Below, one piece after another: positions 7,559-27,573 of a stretch of DNA of 27,573 nt. The notes beneath the pieces were generated by a model, which saw only the letters and a list, made by a program, of their open reading frames with translations, was not told the DNA's origin and did not search any database. The DNA comes from a virus, in the IMG/VR virus record IMGVR_UViG_3300017727_000117, positions 1 through 27,573 of that record; one strand, given 5' to 3'. The position numbers and the translations under genes were made by a program. Each line of letters begins with the position of its first letter. Position 1 is the first letter of the stretch.

Positions 7559-7811
7559 TGCCCAAAGTGACATCATAAACCAACCAAGGCATTACGCCGA
7601 TCACACCATCCAGCCCGTAGACTTCATAATGTCTAACGGGCTTTCTTTTTGGGTTGGCAACGTCATCAAGTACGTCTGCCGCGCTGGGACAAAACCCTAC
7701 CCAAACATGGACGCAACAGAGTCCGAAATCACCGACATCAGAAAAGCCATTCGCTATTGCGAGATGCGCCTCAATCAGCTTGAAGGGAGAAACCCAAGCG
7801 ATGAAAAGTAA
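7512..7811 (+). CDS. DUF3310 protein, related to T7 gp1.7 nucleotide kinase region
   Basis: A 99-aa protein with the DUF3310 signature: INQPRHYADHTIQPVDFI at residues 22-39, then FWVGNVIKYVCRAGTK and a closing helix with IRKAIRYCEMRLNQL. The family is widespread in phages and includes the C-terminal part of T7 gp1.7, a dGMP/dTMP kinase; the small stand-alone form has no assigned activity. The start at 7512 has GGGAG about 8 bases upstream; the next in-frame Met is at 7533. Its neighbours (exonuclease and ribonucleotide reductase) fit a nucleotide-metabolism role, which is inferred. It overlaps both neighbours. Confidence 0.87.
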   Translation: MGNHEHYMRELARQADAQSDIINQPRHYADHTIQPVDFIMSNGLSFWVGNVIKYVCRAGTKPYPNMDATESEITDIRKAIRYCEMRLNQLEGRNPSDEK

Positions 7812-9708
7812 TCTATTACCTACTGACTACCAGACCTTCATAGCAATCAGTCGTTATGCCCGATGGCTAGAGGATGAGAACCGCAGAGAAACATGGCTAG
7901 AGACAGTGCAAAGATACATGGACTACATGCACTCTAAGGTAAACTTTAGCGGTCAGGATGCACAAGACTTAGAAGATGCCATCCTTGATCTCAATGTGAT
8001 GCCATCGATGAGAGCCTTGATGACTGCTGGTGTAGCCGCAGACCGTGACAACACATGTATCTATAACTGCTCTTACCTGCCTGTCGATCATCCACGGGCT
8101 TTCGATGAAGCCATGTTCATTCTCTTATGTGGCACAGGAGTTGGCTTCTCAGTCGAGCGTCAGTCGATCAGTAAGTTGCCAACGATCCCAGAAGACCTAA
8201 CAGACACTGACGATGTTATGGTCGTACAAGACAGCAAGGAAGGCTGGGCCAAGGCTCTGCGTAAACTTATTAGCTTGCTGTATATAGGCGGTGTGCCTCG
8301 CTGGGATCTAAGCGGCATACGCCCAGCAGGTGCGCGGCTGAAGACCTTTGGTGGTCGTGCGTCGGGGCCGGAGCCGCTAGACGATCTGTTTAAGTTTGTC
8401 GTTGCTAAGTTCAAAGGCGCGGCAGGACGCAAGCTCAACAGCATCGAAACCCATGACATCATGTGTAAGATCGGTGAAGTCGTTGTTGTCGGTGGTGTAC
8501 GCCGTTCAGCTATGATTAGCCTGTCTAACCTGAGTGACCAGCGTATGCGTCATGCAAAGTCAGGATCATGGTGGGAGAACGAAGGTCAACGTGCTCTAGC
8601 TAACAACTCTGTGTGCTACACCGAGAAGCCAGACATGGAGACATTCTTGCGCGAATGGCTTGCACTTGTTGAGTCTAAGTCAGGTGAGCGTGGTATCTTT
8701 AGCCGTGTAGCGGCTGAGTCCCATGTAGCAAAGAACGGTAGAAGAGTTCTTGGACATGAGTGGGGAACCAACCCGTGCTCAGAGATCATCTTGAGGCCGT
8801 ACCAGTTTTGCAATCTGACAGAGGTTGTCGTGCGTGAGCATGATGATCTTGAGTCACTGAAGAAGAAAGTTCGATTAGCTACAATCTTAGGTACAGCGCA
8901 GTCTACCTTCACACATCTGCCGTACCTCAGACCTGTGTGGACTAAGAATACATCAGAGGAACGGCTGCTTGGTGTGTCTCTGACAGGCATCATGGATCAT
9001 CCTGTGTTGTCCAAGAACATCGATAGCCCACGCTGGTTAGCTGAGATGAAGCAGGTAGCCATTGATATTAATGCTGAATATGCCGACAAGTTTGGCATCG
9101 AAGTCTCAGCAGCGATTACCTGCGTCAAACCATCTGGCACGGTGTCCCAGCTAGTCGATAGTGCCAGCGGCATCCACGCACGTCACTCTGACTATTACAT
9201 CAGAACTGTTAGAGGCGATAACAAAGACCCTTTGACGCAGTTTATGAAGGACTCAGGCATTCCAGCGGAGCCAGATGTAATGAAGCCAGACAGTACGACT
9301 GTGTTTAGCTTCCCTACTAAGTCGCCATTAAACGCTGTCACTCGTAACGCTATGACTGCGATACAGCAACTAGAGCTATGGAAGACTTACGCAACTGAGT
9401 GGTGTGAGCATAAGCCATCTGTGACCATCACAGTGAGGGATCAGGAGTGGCTAGAGGTCGGTAGCTGGGTCTACAACAACTTTGATCTTTGCTCTGGCAT
9501 TAGCTTCTTACCCCACTCAGATCACACATATGCACAGGCTCCATATCAGGAGATCTCAGAGGTCGAGTACATAAACGCCAAAGACAGGATGCCAGCCAGC
9601 ATCGATTGGTCAGCTCTGTCACTCTATGAGCTGGAAGATACAACCTCTGGCTCACAGACATTGGCTTGCACAAGCGGTGCATGTGAAATCGTGGACATTG
9701 CGTCATGA
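7801..9708 (+). CDS. nrdJ: Adenosylcobalamin-dependent (class II) ribonucleotide reductase, monomeric type
   Basis: Reduces ribonucleotides (probably NTPs) to deoxyribonucleotides using a B12-generated thiyl radical. The 635-aa protein has the class II monomer signature: C90 (IYNCSYLP) and C337 as the likely active-site disulphide pair; N324, radical C326 and E328 in NPCSEIIL; VKPSGTVSQ; and a C-terminal CTSGAC pair (C623, C628) that re-reduces the active site. The 11-residue spacing between radical and second cysteine and the final CX4C match Lactobacillus leichmannii RTPR (739 aa). The start at 7801 (MKSNLLPTDY) has AGGGAG about 13 bases upstream; the frame is open to 7654, but that stretch overlaps the DUF3310 gene. 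It makes dNTP supply depend on host or environmental cobalamin. Confidence 0.95.
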   Translation: MKSNLLPTDYQTFIAISRYARWLEDENRRETWLETVQRYMDYMHSKVNFSGQDAQDLEDAILDLNVMPSMRALMTAGVAADRDNTCIYNCSYLPVDHPRAFDEAMFILLCGTGVGFSVERQSISKLPTIPEDLTDTDDVMVVQDSKEGWAKALRKLISLLYIGGVPRWDLSGIRPAGARLKTFGGRASGPEPLDDLFKFVVAKFKGAAGRKLNSIETHDIMCKIGEVVVVGGVRRSAMISLSNLSDQRMRHAKSGSWWENEGQRALANNSVCYTEKPDMETFLREWLALVESKSGERGIFSRVAAESHVAKNGRRVLGHEWGTNPCSEIILRPYQFCNLTEVVVREHDDLESLKKKVRLATILGTAQSTFTHLPYLRPVWTKNTSEERLLGVSLTGIMDHPVLSKNIDSPRWLAEMKQVAIDINAEYADKFGIEVSAAITCVKPSGTVSQLVDSASGIHARHSDYYIRTVRGDNKDPLTQFMKDSGIPAEPDVMKPDSTTVFSFPTKSPLNAVTRNAMTAIQQLELWKTYATEWCEHKPSVTITVRDQEWLEVGSWVYNNFDLCSGISFLPHSDHTYAQAPYQEISEVEYINAKDRMPASIDWSALSLYELEDTTSGSQTLACTSGACEIVDIAS

Positions 9709-12541: not shown

Positions 12542-13069
12542 CTATCCTACTAAGAAGCCGCTGAAGTATGTTCCGGCGTATTGTATTCTCGTTGTTGTGT
12601 CCCCATTCACTATCAATCGCACATCTATTTCATCATTCGCGGATATTTGTACGGTTGCAGACGTGCCGTTTGACTGATAGGTGCCGCCTTGAGGGTCTTC
12701 TATACCGCCGTATAAATACAAATCATTTCCCCAATGTGCGTCGCCGTTTAAGCGAATTTGGGTGTATACATAAGAGGCAGTCGTAGTGCTTGAGACCCTT
12801 ACTTGCCAGTTAAATTGGTAAACACCACCGACAGGTGCAGTGAACTTATAAGTCGATGTGTCGTAGCAATTACCAATGTTGTGCTGTGTGGCATCAAAGT
12901 CTACTTGAGTAAGACTTGAATAGTTTTGATCAGATTGGTCACTGACACTTCTATAAGCGAAGAACGATGGTCTTGCTGGTGTAGTGACAATACCACTCGT
13001 ATCAATCTGTAACGCTGTGTTGCTGTTGGTGGGATCTTGAATTGATGAAACTTTAAGTATGCTGCTCAT
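12542..13069 (-). CDS. Putative fibre tip with C1q-like jelly-roll domain (175 aa)
   Basis: The first 30 residues (MSSILKVSSIQDPTNSNTAL, then QIDTSGIV) form the short 'SSGTTALQIDSSG' linker seen in many fibre proteins. Residues 33-175 read as a C1q/TNF-like jelly roll: PSFFAYRSVSDQS, a YDTSTYKFTAPVGGVYQFNW strand pair, then TQIRLNG and a final YFSGFLVG strand. Such domains trimerise and bind surface ligands. It shares plan and linker with the neighbours at 13076-13585 and 15873-16739. Receptor recognition is inferred. Confidence 0.75.
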   Translation of the reverse strand: MSSILKVSSIQDPTNSNTALQIDTSGIVTTPARPSFFAYRSVSDQSDQNYSSLTQVDFDATQHNIGNCYDTSTYKFTAPVGGVYQFNWQVRVSSTTTASYVYTQIRLNGDAHWGNDLYLYGGIEDPQGGTYQSNGTSATVQISANDEIDVRLIVNGDTTTRIQYAGTYFSGFLVG

Positions 13070-24144: not shown

Positions 24145-25716
24145 TTAGACCATTTCAACGTATAATTCATTAGGTGTCTCCACAGGTTCCCATGCGCCCT
24201 CGTGGACATGGTTCGCCAATGCAAGGCTCATTACACAGTCATCAAAACAAGAGGGTTCAGCTTCCATCGCGCCGCTTTCGGTAACGATGTAAGTCATCAT
24301 TTCTCGGATTGTTGTCTTATCATTTAGTTCGACCTCTTCTTCGCGCATCGATGCTCGGAGTTGGTCAATAATGAGAGGTTTAGTTTTCGATGTGGTTGTG
24401 AAGCCTAGCTTGATGGTTTCACGGTCAGTGAGCTTATCAACGTGAACTTCTGTGTAAAAGTTCGGGTAAGCAAAGTCTTTACCTAGCCTTGTACAAGTCA
24501 GTATGCCGTGGCTGTTGTTCTCGACGATAATAAATGCTTCGTTGTAGAACTCACCTAGCGCATACAAAACTTCCGCAAAGTAATCAGGGTGGACATGACC
24601 ACGCCATGTTGCGACTTGCCTCTTCTTGCTGTCGAGCACTTGTGCAACTGAGTAGTCTCCATTTCTGATACCCATAGAGCTATCTGCCCCAATGACATAT
24701 TGCATACCCTCATCATGTTCGTAGTAAGTAGTTAGCTCTCCGCGTATATTCGGTAAGAACTCATCGCCTTCTAAGGCCAATCGTTCTTTGACATCCTGTG
24801 TCTTACCCAGTCTCTTTTGTAGTTGTTCTGGGTTAAACACAGGGCGTCCAGTGGTAAGGAAGGCTTCAGAAGGCTCGGCAGGATATTCTTGCTTGAATAA
24901 TTCTATGCCGTTCTGAGCGATCTTACGGCGGCGAAACATCAGTTGAGCATCGGACAGGTCGTATAACTCGACCAGCTCTTTCTCTTCTGGTGTTTGCTCA
25001 AAGTTCTCTGGTACGTCCTCTACATATGTCGGATCGACATACCAAGGGATAAAGACAGGTATAAAACCGTTAGTGCCTTCTACCGCGCCTTTCCAGAGTT
25101 CATGGTAAATGCCTGTTACACCGTTTGCCGTACTTTCGATAAAGATAGCAGTGCCAGCAGTATTCGGGACAGCCTGTGCCAAACCATTCCATATGTCTTG
25201 AGCCGTTGATTTAGGCCAGAAAGCCAGTTCGGACGCATGGACATGAGTAAGGGTTTCACCCCTACCAACTGAGTCACCACCTGCTGTGGCAACGACATAG
25301 CTTGAGTCAAGGACATCAAATGATAATTCCCTTCTGCTGCTGTACTTCGTATGAGGTTTCAAGATCGGTGGACAGTGTTCGTGCAGTCGCTTCGTCATAT
25401 CAAACAAAGCTCTGGTACTATCCGCATGGTGTGTAATCACCATAGCTTTACGGGCTTTTTGTTGTGACACAGCGTAATATAAGTAACCGCCCGTGTAGGT
25501 ACTTAGTCCTTGCTGCCGAGCTTTTAGGATAATGACCCTAATCTTGCCTTCGGTATCAAGTTGCTGTTGTACTGCTTTGTCGAGGATTTGTTGTGCAGGG
25601 TTCAACTTCAGTGGAGCAATGTCACCTGCTTTTGTTCTGATCTTTAGTGCGGATTTTGCATAAAAAGGAAAGTCGGTGAGTAGACGCTTACGAACTGCTT
25701 TTAGCTTCGGGTGCAT
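24145..25716 (-). CDS. Terminase large subunit (packaging ATPase/nuclease)
   Basis: Motor that pumps DNA into the prohead and cuts concatemers. The 523-aa protein has a variant Walker A (KARQQGLST, residues 65-73), Walker B (HVHASELAF, E163), motif III IESTANG at 193-199, and an RNase H-like nuclease with D345 (IGADSS), E399 (IIVENNSHG) and a C-terminal aspartate pair (FDDCVMSLALA). GELTTYYEHDEGMQYVIGAD introduces the nuclease domain. It overlaps the preceding small-terminase candidate by 29 bases and ends 4 bases before the portal start, the standard packaging order. Confidence 0.95.
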   Translation of the reverse strand: MHPKLKAVRKRLLTDFPFYAKSALKIRTKAGDIAPLKLNPAQQILDKAVQQQLDTEGKIRVIILKARQQGLSTYTGGYLYYAVSQQKARKAMVITHHADSTRALFDMTKRLHEHCPPILKPHTKYSSRRELSFDVLDSSYVVATAGGDSVGRGETLTHVHASELAFWPKSTAQDIWNGLAQAVPNTAGTAIFIESTANGVTGIYHELWKGAVEGTNGFIPVFIPWYVDPTYVEDVPENFEQTPEEKELVELYDLSDAQLMFRRRKIAQNGIELFKQEYPAEPSEAFLTTGRPVFNPEQLQKRLGKTQDVKERLALEGDEFLPNIRGELTTYYEHDEGMQYVIGADSSMGIRNGDYSVAQVLDSKKRQVATWRGHVHPDYFAEVLYALGEFYNEAFIIVENNSHGILTCTRLGKDFAYPNFYTEVHVDKLTDRETIKLGFTTTSKTKPLIIDQLRASMREEEVELNDKTTIREMMTYIVTESGAMEAEPSCFDDCVMSLALANHVHEGAWEPVETPNELYVEMV

Positions 25717-26185
25717 CTTCTTCTTCAGCTAACAACGATGCCAAGAAGTCCTCGGCTTTCGCCACAGCTACTTCCGACTTAGCCACAGGCTTCTGCTTGG
25801 TAAAGTCTAAGATCAACCTTGCGGCTGACAGACGTTCACGGGTTTCGCCTTGCATACGCATGACCTCTACGGCAGTGCCTAGAGCTTCCTTTGCATATTC
25901 GTCTTCTATTCCAGCTTTTTCAGCCATGATTTCTACCACCTTTACTGCTTCCTTTTTAATCTTAGCCCTCATAGCATCGGCTTGCTCTTTCCGAAGACCA
26001 TCGGGCGTACCTTTAGGACGACCAGCGTTCTTTCGCTTCTTCAGCGACCACTGTCGTCTTAGCTCTCGACCCTCTGGGGTCTGCATGAGTGTCGAGAAAT
26101 AGTTGTTCTTGGGTGCCTTCTGGGGATGGATACCACGGCCTGTTTTAGAAGGCGATTTGAGGCGTGGGTTCTTAGGTGCTCCCAT
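25688..26185 (-). CDS. Probable terminase small subunit (165 aa)
   Basis: Lies directly upstream of, and overlaps, the large subunit gene, the standard place for the DNA-recognition subunit. The N-terminal third is basic and probably disordered (KNPRLKSPSKTGRGIHPQKA), then RELRRQWSLKKRKNAGRPKG, two or three long helices (QADAMRAKIKKEAVKVVEIM, YAKEALGTAVEVMRMQGETR) and a helix with ERLSAARLILDFTKQKPVAK. The acidic tail (LAEEEDAPEAKSSS) ends the chain. 'R.RL.AARLILDFTK' recurs in small terminases that I remember. No catalytic motif is present. The call rests mostly on position and charge plan. Confidence 0.65.
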   Translation of the reverse strand: MGAPKNPRLKSPSKTGRGIHPQKAPKNNYFSTLMQTPEGRELRRQWSLKKRKNAGRPKGTPDGLRKEQADAMRAKIKKEAVKVVEIMAEKAGIEDEYAKEALGTAVEVMRMQGETRERLSAARLILDFTKQKPVAKSEVAVAKAEDFLASLLAEEEDAPEAKSSS

Positions 26186-26381
26186 CTGCTGGTAACAGCT
26201 TTGTGCGAGGATGTTCTCTAAGCTGTTCGATTGTGCCGTAGATCATAACTATGTCGTTTTCTTTTTCTTCTTCAGTAAAATCTTCAACAAGCGCATCAAT
26301 CTTTCGGACATCCTCTTCTGTAAGGTCTAAACCTTTTTCTTCTAGTATGTCTTCTGCCTGTTTCATAGCTTCGCTACGCAT
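26172..26381 (-). CDS. Small acidic hypothetical protein (69 aa)
   Basis: A Glu/Asp-rich helical protein (MRSEAMKQAEDILEEKGLDL, then EDVRKIDALVEDFTEEEKEN, DIVMIYGTIEQLREHPRTKL). AGGAG lies about 9 bases before the ATG at 26381. It overlaps the metallopeptidase-like gene by 8 bases and the small-terminase candidate by 14, so all three are translated as a unit. No family is recognised. It could be a DNA-packaging accessory because of where it lies. Confidence 0.65.
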   Translation of the reverse strand: MRSEAMKQAEDILEEKGLDLTEEDVRKIDALVEDFTEEEKENDIVMIYGTIEQLREHPRTKLLPADGST

Positions 26382-27573
26382 CGCTTAGATCTCCTTTTAA
26401 CAACAAAGATTCTATCAAAGATACCGCTTCTGATACAACCCTGTCTTTGCTGCCCATAAAGTATTCAGAAACATGTTCACAAAACCATTCATACTGGTTT
26501 TTAGCAGCATATCTGGACACTAAACCGTCTTTCTTTTCTATACTTAAAAAAGACTTTTGATTCTCCGATAACCATTTCTCAACGTCGGTGTCTTTTACAA
26601 AAGCCATCGAATCCCCATTTACATCCACAACTGGTCTGCCGAAGGCGTCAGTTGCATTAGGCAGCATCATTTGATGAATATGGTGTCCTATCTCATGGTA
26701 CATAACTGCCCTAGCTCTATCTATGCCGGTCTTATAGTACCTAAAGTTGTTATGCGGTCTATCAGCAAACGTAACGTCTGGATCATACTCTACTGTTGTG
26801 CCGCCTTTTGTACCGCCAGATGCCCAATCGTTGAAATAAGCAGGGTTGAAGTACATGATACCGCCGCCCATTGAAGCGATGGTGCGAGAATTAGATCTTA
26901 TAGACCCCATACCTCGTATGTGAGGTATACCCAAACGATCACAGATCTCGTCAATTTCGGGTTTGATGGCTGCAATCAAAGCAACGGCTTCTGGTGTAAA
27001 AGCACTGCCTAACTTTGCTTCTCCTCTTTGGTCAGGTCTTGTAGACCCCCAATGCTTATTTCTTGGGTCGTTCTGTGCGTCTTTTAGCTGCTGTGTCAGT
27101 CCTTTTATAGACACAGCTTTACTAGGAACAGCAAAACTAGGTGTTACAGTGCTTACGATTGGGTCAGTTGGCTGCGCTGGTTTTGGCTGTGGCGGCTGTG
27201 GTGGTTGAGGTGGCTGCGGTGGCTCAGGTGGCTGCTGTTGTTTCTGCCTAGCTCTTTGCTGCGTCTCAATCCTCTTGATATACTGACCTAAATACTGCTG
27301 TGCGGCTTCGATGTTACCGTTGTTGGCTTGGATCGCTGTAACAGCTTCTTGCAGCTCTTGCTGTGCTCGACCAAGCGGATCAACACCTAAATCATCGTCT
27401 CTGAAGATCTTTAACTTTGTTTTGATAATAGACTTAGTGACGGGATCTATTGTCTGGTCGGCATCAACGGCATCTATAAGTGCTTGGGCTGCTGCTTTGT
27501 TGGCTTCGATGCCGCGTTGTATGTTTGCGTTCTCAGCTTGTCCGTTTTTGTAGCGTTCAAACGCTCCGGCATC
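26374..27573 (-). CDS. Large protein with proline-rich linker and HExxH metallopeptidase-like domain (5' end outside window)
   Basis: The frame is open to the window edge (first codon at 27573-27571), so 399 C-terminal residues of a longer protein are visible; the GTG at 27114 is only an internal codon. Order: a charged helical region (1-110, including RAQQELQEAVTAIQANNGNI), a Pro/Gln linker (about 112-136), then a globular domain (from about 190) with GIMYFNPAYFNDW and MYHEIGHHIHQMM. H293, E294 and H297 form a HExxH zinc-site motif, with EWFCEHVSEYF at 362-372 offering a third ligand, as in gluzincin-like families. It precedes the packaging genes. It may be a virion protein that degrades peptidoglycan-linked or host protein, or a processing protease; activity is inferred only. 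Confidence 0.82.
   Translation of the reverse strand, partial: DAGAFERYKNGQAENANIQRGIEANKAAAQALIDAVDADQTIDPVTKSIIKTKLKIFRDDDLGVDPLGRAQQELQEAVTAIQANNGNIEAAQQYLGQYIKRIETQQRARQKQQQPPEPPQPPQPPQPPQPKPAQPTDPIVSTVTPSFAVPSKAVSIKGLTQQLKDAQNDPRNKHWGSTRPDQRGEAKLGSAFTPEAVALIAAIKPEIDEICDRLGIPHIRGMGSIRSNSRTIASMGGGIMYFNPAYFNDWASGGTKGGTTVEYDPDVTFADRPHNNFRYYKTGIDRARAVMYHEIGHHIHQMMLPNATDAFGRPVVDVNGDSMAFVKDTDVEKWLSENQKSFLSIEKKDGLVSRYAAKNQYEWFCEHVSEYFMGSKDRVVSEAVSLIESLLLKGDLSDA

Follow-up and report, generated by a model that had tools for sequence, protein, structure and literature searches.

What does a metallopeptidase do at the end of a large phage protein that is encoded just before the terminase genes? The question is raised by a 27,573-nucleotide (nt) stretch of viral DNA (IMG/VR record IMGVR_UViG_3300017727_000117, positions 1 to 27,573; here called the window), in which a minus-strand frame at 26374–27573 stays open for 399 amino acids (aa) up to the window edge. 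A first-pass annotation, made from the sequence alone, had described a metallopeptidase-like domain on a probably virion-associated protein. Beyond that description, the domain and the small open reading frame (ORF) that follows it are an exchangeable cassette, and the same domain is also found on MuF head proteins. On balance, the cassette probably encodes an exchangeable, injected zinc protease effector and its cognate inhibitor or immunity-like partner, carried by a T7-like marine podovirus.

The complete gene was recovered from a contig (L002/L086) that shares 3,285 nt with the window at 100% identity and supplies the missing 5' part. It encodes 1093 aa (protein P0005, at L002:5460–8738), so the frame does run off the window, as first described. 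The N-terminal part, the carrier, is joined to the metallopeptidase domain by a Pro/Gln linker preceded by an Ala/Gln/Glu-rich stretch; the linker, which the first-pass annotation had placed at ~27166–27240, lies at ~27136–27234. The other coordinates are given in Table 1.

Two contigs, L087 and L088, have carriers with ~95–97% DNA identity to that of the window, and from the start codon of the terminase small subunit (TerS) onward they are 98.2% identical to it. From codon ~808, where the linker starts, to the TerS ATG, only 39 nt are similar at the DNA level, which places the left boundary of the cassette at ~27232. Between L086 and L087 the proportion of synonymous differences is low in the carrier (0.047), TerS (0.026) and the terminase large subunit (TerL; 0.07) but high in the metallopeptidase domain (0.69) and the small ORF (0.71). 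Despite the different tip, TerS, portal and scaffold of the window and L087 are 99–100% identical. Contig L007 has the same exchange pattern at lower divergence – TerS, TerL and portal are 99% identical, the metallopeptidase domain only 67% and the small ORF 58%. The domain and the small ORF have been replaced together by recombination, and the linker repeats and the TerS overlap mark the two ends of the cassette.

Judged from profile alignments and a structural model, the exchanged domain is a lethal-factor-like zincin with a conserved active site. It is the only part of the window protein in common with Aegir gp15, Kolga gp59 and HTVC026P gp30 (26–30% identity). A three-sequence profile search gave 169 relatives in IMG/VR, 80 of which were kept, and a pattern-limited search of genome contigs gave one further relative, in Sphingobium. 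The sequence Y-H-E-x-x-H-H-x-H is kept in 43 non-redundant C-termini, though HExxH was itself searched for by pattern, so that its conservation is partly selected. The downstream Y-x6-E-x3-E (Y1049, E1056 and E1060 of P0005), absent from the viral search pattern, is invariant in the 43 C-termini and likewise in a 46-row alignment. Both glutamates lie in EWFCEHVSEY, downstream of HEIGH in the window frame. Against the PDB, the zincin profile matched anthrax lethal factor (1.3e-5) and an HExxH lipoprotein (1.9e-6). Because the profile alignment pairs the Glu of EWF (E1056) with the zinc-ligand Glu of lethal factor, this residue is the likely third zinc ligand; the Glu of EHVSEY, proposed for that role in the first-pass annotation, is probably in the second shell.

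The AlphaFold model of the zincin (pLDDT 90.8, pTM 0.89) aligned with VIA-align to the lethal factor catalytic domain with Z of 10.5–11.2 over ~180 residues (root-mean-square deviation ~3.7). PPEP-1 was next best (Z 8.0), and other zincins scored ~7–8. VIA-align was needed for this comparison, as Foldseek gave the model no match in the PDB at E below 0.001; the best viral-structure matches were three proteins of 576–692 aa. Identity to lethal factor is ~12%, and the catalytic fold alone is in common. Pfam, NCBIfam and PHROGs gave sub-threshold zincin matches or none for the window fragment. In the Pfam ATLF family the window zincin scores 13.5 bits, under the gathering score of 27.4, and 44 of 46 members of the zincin set match at E<=0.1 (best 5e-6). 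With an HExxH helix, a third Glu on the following helix and a whole-domain fold similarity above background, the domain would work like the M34 peptidases (lethal factor and PPEP) but stays below the Pfam cut-offs for a curated member. Neither a fold other than a zincin nor loss of HExxH among relatives, the outcomes named beforehand as speaking against a metallopeptidase, was found, and the position first given for HExxH (26683–26697) was correct. The zincins of L081, L076, L085, L089, L091 and L093 have an extra insertion, very roughly 80 residues, before HExxH; it occurs on carriers of both sizes.

The carrier gene is grouped with other ejection-protein genes. Directly upstream in L002 are the genes for two proteins, one of 382 aa (phrog_4287 DNA ejection protein, 4e-12) and one of 578 aa that contains an SLT domain and matches phrog_2534 (9e-8), a family labelled "released from the phage upon host infection"; downstream, the order is carrier gene, small ORF, TerS, TerL and portal. 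The carriers of L089 and L009, which are 50–58% identical to that of the window, match a virion structural protein family (phrog_6958; 2e-13 and 1e-10). The window protein itself has no significant PHROG match, and no match to the carrier was found among annotated phage genomes. The N-terminal 800 aa probably represent an internal-protein family, which agrees with the first-pass suggestion of a virion-borne internal protein. L009 resembled an unrelated carrier in a comparison that showed the C-terminus only, but it is 50% identical along the carrier. Proteins of 1971–2013 aa in L094, L096 and L097 are carrier-like in the first ~300 aa only and have no PHROG match of note.

The 1093-aa protein has no MuF domain. 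Aegir gp15 has one (PF04233, 4e-15), as do 12 of 38 carriers by Pfam, and in most other relatives the zincin is on proteins of 530–700 aa, many of which match head-morphogenesis families. The MuF-type zincin gene sits between the portal and scaffold genes. A single zincin family therefore forms the end of virion proteins of two kinds, and it is mainly on this ground that delivery with the DNA is proposed. Among the matches listed for the Aegir MuF protein in plasmids, only the MuF parts aligned. The Aegir record (MT375519.1, 18.3 kb) matches part of Kolga (MT375529.1, 48.7 kb) in gene order and zincin gene, and may be a fragment of a Kolga-like genome.

In the mechanism proposed here, the large internal (ejection-type) protein would be loaded in the virion and ejected into the host together with the DNA, where its C-terminal lethal-factor-like protease would cut a host protein, most likely one of defence or regulation – the fast exchange of the tip suggests such a target. 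The small acidic protein, translated right after the protease, would bind it and keep it inactive in the producing cell. We infer packaging, injection, proteolysis, the target and inhibition. Of the functions suggested in the first-pass annotation, the one in best agreement is that of an injected internal protein with a protease head. The exchange of a variable C-terminal enzyme along with the small ORF behind it is likewise a feature of MuF toxins.

Wherever the DNA continues past the peptidase stop, a short ORF begins near that stop or overlaps it. It typically encodes 58–73 aa (in L009 the first listed start gives a longer product, and an inner ATG exists), and most of the products are acidic. 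The 69-aa protein of the window is modelled as a three-helix bundle; a fold match to Efb-C (Z 6.3) was no higher than common helical arrangements give and was disregarded. The small ORFs of the MuF set and the ejection set aligned in hhalign with a probability of 90% and E of 1.6e-6 for one pair. Distances between zincins and between partners correlate (mirror-tree r 0.65, 0/2000 permutations).

An always late, coupled small ORF that is inherited together with the tip would also be expected if the effector acted as proposed and the small protein helped in loading the tip, as a chaperone, or in its assembly, instead of inhibiting it. No lysogeny genes were seen in the window, which fits this version. 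Against it, the small ORFs of MuF toxins tested elsewhere are immunity proteins – the toxin Bxa, for example, is neutralised through binding of Bsi (PMC11699363) – and small size and acidity fit an inhibitor, though this is a weak argument. A chaperone is thus less probable than an inhibitor.

Carriers of the window family differ widely in their tips. A profile search with the carrier gave 59 loci; in the tally below L155 is left out, and 13 carriers are cut by contig ends. Ten of the 59 have the window-type zincin, each beside a match to the partner family, while 9 are bare, 23 have a different HExxH or HExxxH tip, and three (L125, L126 and L129) have another tip or none that is recognizable. 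Two of the 23, L114 and L117, have ART-PolyVal plus an HExxxH stretch. The C-termini of L114, L117 and L135, all in the same carrier family, combine ART-PolyVal-type or YHGT-containing tips with an HExxxH or HExxH stretch. The second zincin tip family was considered as a relative of the window zincin, but nothing beyond HExxH supported this.

Most carriers with complete C-termini thus have a zincin-like HExxH tip (10 lethal-factor-like, 23 other), so that proteolysis is kept but not any one family, and this could be expected if the zincin processed its own carrier, for instance at the linker, either ahead of packaging or once ejected. Such processing, the main rival to an injected effector, has been proposed for the MPTase domains of polyvalent proteins (PMC5512222), and the M34 relatives include Pro-Pro endopeptidases while the window linker is Pro-rich. 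However, nine carriers are bare, and linkers vary, being Gln/Asn-rich in L087, poly-Pro in L009 and different again in MuF carriers. Self-processing also leaves the co-exchanged partner protein unexplained, and it is considered doubtful.

The cassette has also been lost as a unit. The cultured pelagiphage HTVC026P, grown on Pelagibacter HTCC1062, has both the zincin and the small ORF; its cultured relatives HTVC111P, HTVC112P and HTVC202P have neither. In these three, which are 64–71% identical to HTVC026P in the MuF part, 59–63% in the scaffold and 73% in the capsid, the MuF protein stops at ~330–340 aa and the scaffold gene follows directly. In the ejection family, L092/L113 has a bare carrier and no small ORF, and no zincin of the window family is found anywhere in its 41.9-kb record, whose orthologues of portal, scaffold and major capsid are 69%, 50% and 66% identical.

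These losses bear on the remaining two functions named in the first-pass annotation. An ejected protease could act as an entry enzyme that degrades proteins of the periplasm or envelope to allow the DNA conduit to form; the adjoining internal protein has an SLT domain, and there is a hydrophobic stretch near carrier residues 132–168. Such a role is conceivable but rather improbable, as the tip is dispensable in close relatives, MuF proteins, from a different virion type, have the same tip, and its fast exchange suggests a variable target. A head-maturation protease trimming scaffold or capsid is highly improbable in spite of the position of the MuF-borne copy, because orthologous scaffold and capsid genes occur without the tip in HTVC111P, HTVC112P and HTVC202P, as do portal, scaffold and major capsid in L092, and because TerS, portal and scaffold are nearly the same in the window and L087 while the tips differ.

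Several points count against an injected effector with a cognate inhibitor. Virion presence, injection, protease activity, toxicity and inhibition all rest on inference. The small ORFs of the MuF group show weak homology to those of the ejection group, with ~5 of 34 not clearly in the family, and the mirror-tree correlation is partly shared phage ancestry. A non-homologous small ORF precedes TerS in other carrier lineages, even beside the bare carriers L127, L136 and L138, and position alone is therefore no proof of immunity; an immunity role for every small ORF ahead of TerS was considered and dropped, since the ORF beside these bare carriers is a different one, unrelated to the partner family. 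Lastly, the window has no integrase though three relatives have one, which makes the need for immunity less evident. A second small-ORF family (~91–128 aa, MxxKAxDLVxYLxAI...) occupies the gap between carrier and TerS in L127, L128, L136, L138, L141 and others, with or without a carrier tip.

Table 1. Features of the carrier–zincin locus (window coordinates).
Feature	Position	Strand	Basis or remark
C-terminal 399 aa of the 1093-aa ejection-type carrier with metallopeptidase tip	26374..27573	-	5' end outside the window
Carrier end, P0005 residues 695-807	27235..27573	-	whole carrier ~97% identical in L087
Pro/Gln linker (QQQPPEPPQPPQPP...)	~27136..27234	-	Gln/Asn-rich linker instead in L087
Lethal-factor-like (M34-like) zincin domain, 253 aa as modelled	26377..27135	-	AlphaFold, structure and profile comparison
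HExxH (HEIGH, within MYHEIGHHIHQ): two zinc ligands and catalytic Glu by homology	26683..26697	-	
Glu of EWF, P0005 E1056: probable third zinc ligand	26488..26490	-	invariant; pairs with Glu of lethal factor AEFF
Invariant Tyr, P0005 Y1049	26509..26511	-	7 residues ahead of the ligand Glu, as in lethal factor
Invariant Glu of EHVSEY, P0005 E1060: probably second shell	26476..26478	-	conservation and profile alignment
69-aa acidic ORF, candidate inhibitor/immunity partner	26172..26381	-	overlaps peptidase stop and TerS start
Exchanged cassette: linker, zincin and small ORF	26186..27232	-	comparison with L087/L088
Terminase small subunit (TerS)	25688..26185	-	L087 homology resumes from TerS ATG
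Terminase large subunit (TerL)	24145..25716	-	

The nearest known systems are the MuF polymorphic toxins, which also combine an N-terminal virion protein, an exchangeable C-terminal enzyme and a small downstream ORF. In a survey of MuF toxins, 20% of the set had a metallopeptidase, 89.4% were followed by a small ORF, and toxin-bearing MuF proteins were found only in temperate phages (PMC5576092). The window zincin family itself has direct MuF-type cases in HTVC026P, Aegir and Kolga. Unlike these, the window carrier is of the ejection type, probably internal to the virion of a T7-like podovirus, and toxicity and immunity are only proposed here. Polyvalent proteins with MPTase domains (PMC5512222) are similar in being large phage products that are injected and equipped with zincins and ART domains, the latter also found in L114 and L117, but the window zincin is lethal-factor-like, has no PolyVal Pfam match, and is a single tip with a coupled partner. 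The fold and the Tyr-x6-Glu-x3-Glu second helix are those of MEROPS M34 (lethal factor and PPEP-1), and a lethal-factor-type "Tox-ALFMetallopeptidase" is known in polymorphic toxins, where it is listed for PVC and type II secretion (PMC3482391); the window domain differs from both in sitting on a probable phage virion protein. As with the P22 and T7 ejection proteins, two other internal proteins are encoded alongside, between the tail and terminase genes, and have corresponding PHROG labels, but the window carrier has a polymorphic enzymatic C-terminus. Literature searches found no report of ejection proteins with effector tips. What is new here is the non-MuF carrier and the natural exchanges and losses jointly with the partner gene; the theme of polymorphic effectors was already known.

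The early module of the window is T7-like (RNA polymerase, single-stranded DNA-binding protein, helicase-primase, DNA polymerase and exonuclease). Three ejection-family relatives with a T7-like layout have a tyrosine integrase (L101:1533–2672, minus strand, and the records of L092 and L089). In one of these relatives, G004, the integrase gene lies on the far side of the RNA polymerase, in a part outside the coverage of the window. There is no integrase in the Kolga and HTVC026P records, and the restriction of toxin-bearing MuF proteins to temperate phages may not hold for this zincin family. Elsewhere in the window are a B12-dependent class II ribonucleotide reductase (7654–9708, plus strand; PF02867, PF21995, PF17975), 87% identical to that of G004, and a protein with a C1q-like domain (12542–13069, minus strand; PF00386, 2.6e-13) among the late, tail-side genes.

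For the family as a whole, it seems about evenly balanced whether lethal-factor-like tips and their cognate inhibitors move between MuF and podoviral ejection proteins, and are exchanged in nature among otherwise nearly identical phages, as a polymorphic effector–immunity system independent of MuF; selection by host defences or competing phages would then be probable. On this reading, phage-borne polymorphic toxins, known on the MuF proteins of temperate phages, would extend to the ejection-type proteins of T7-like podoviruses. Natural pairs that differ in the presence or type of the cassette exist both among contigs and among cultured Pelagibacter phages. The role of injected phage proteases, and whether their small neighbours provide immunity, can now be tested directly by comparing HTVC026P with HTVC111P, HTVC112P and HTVC202P.
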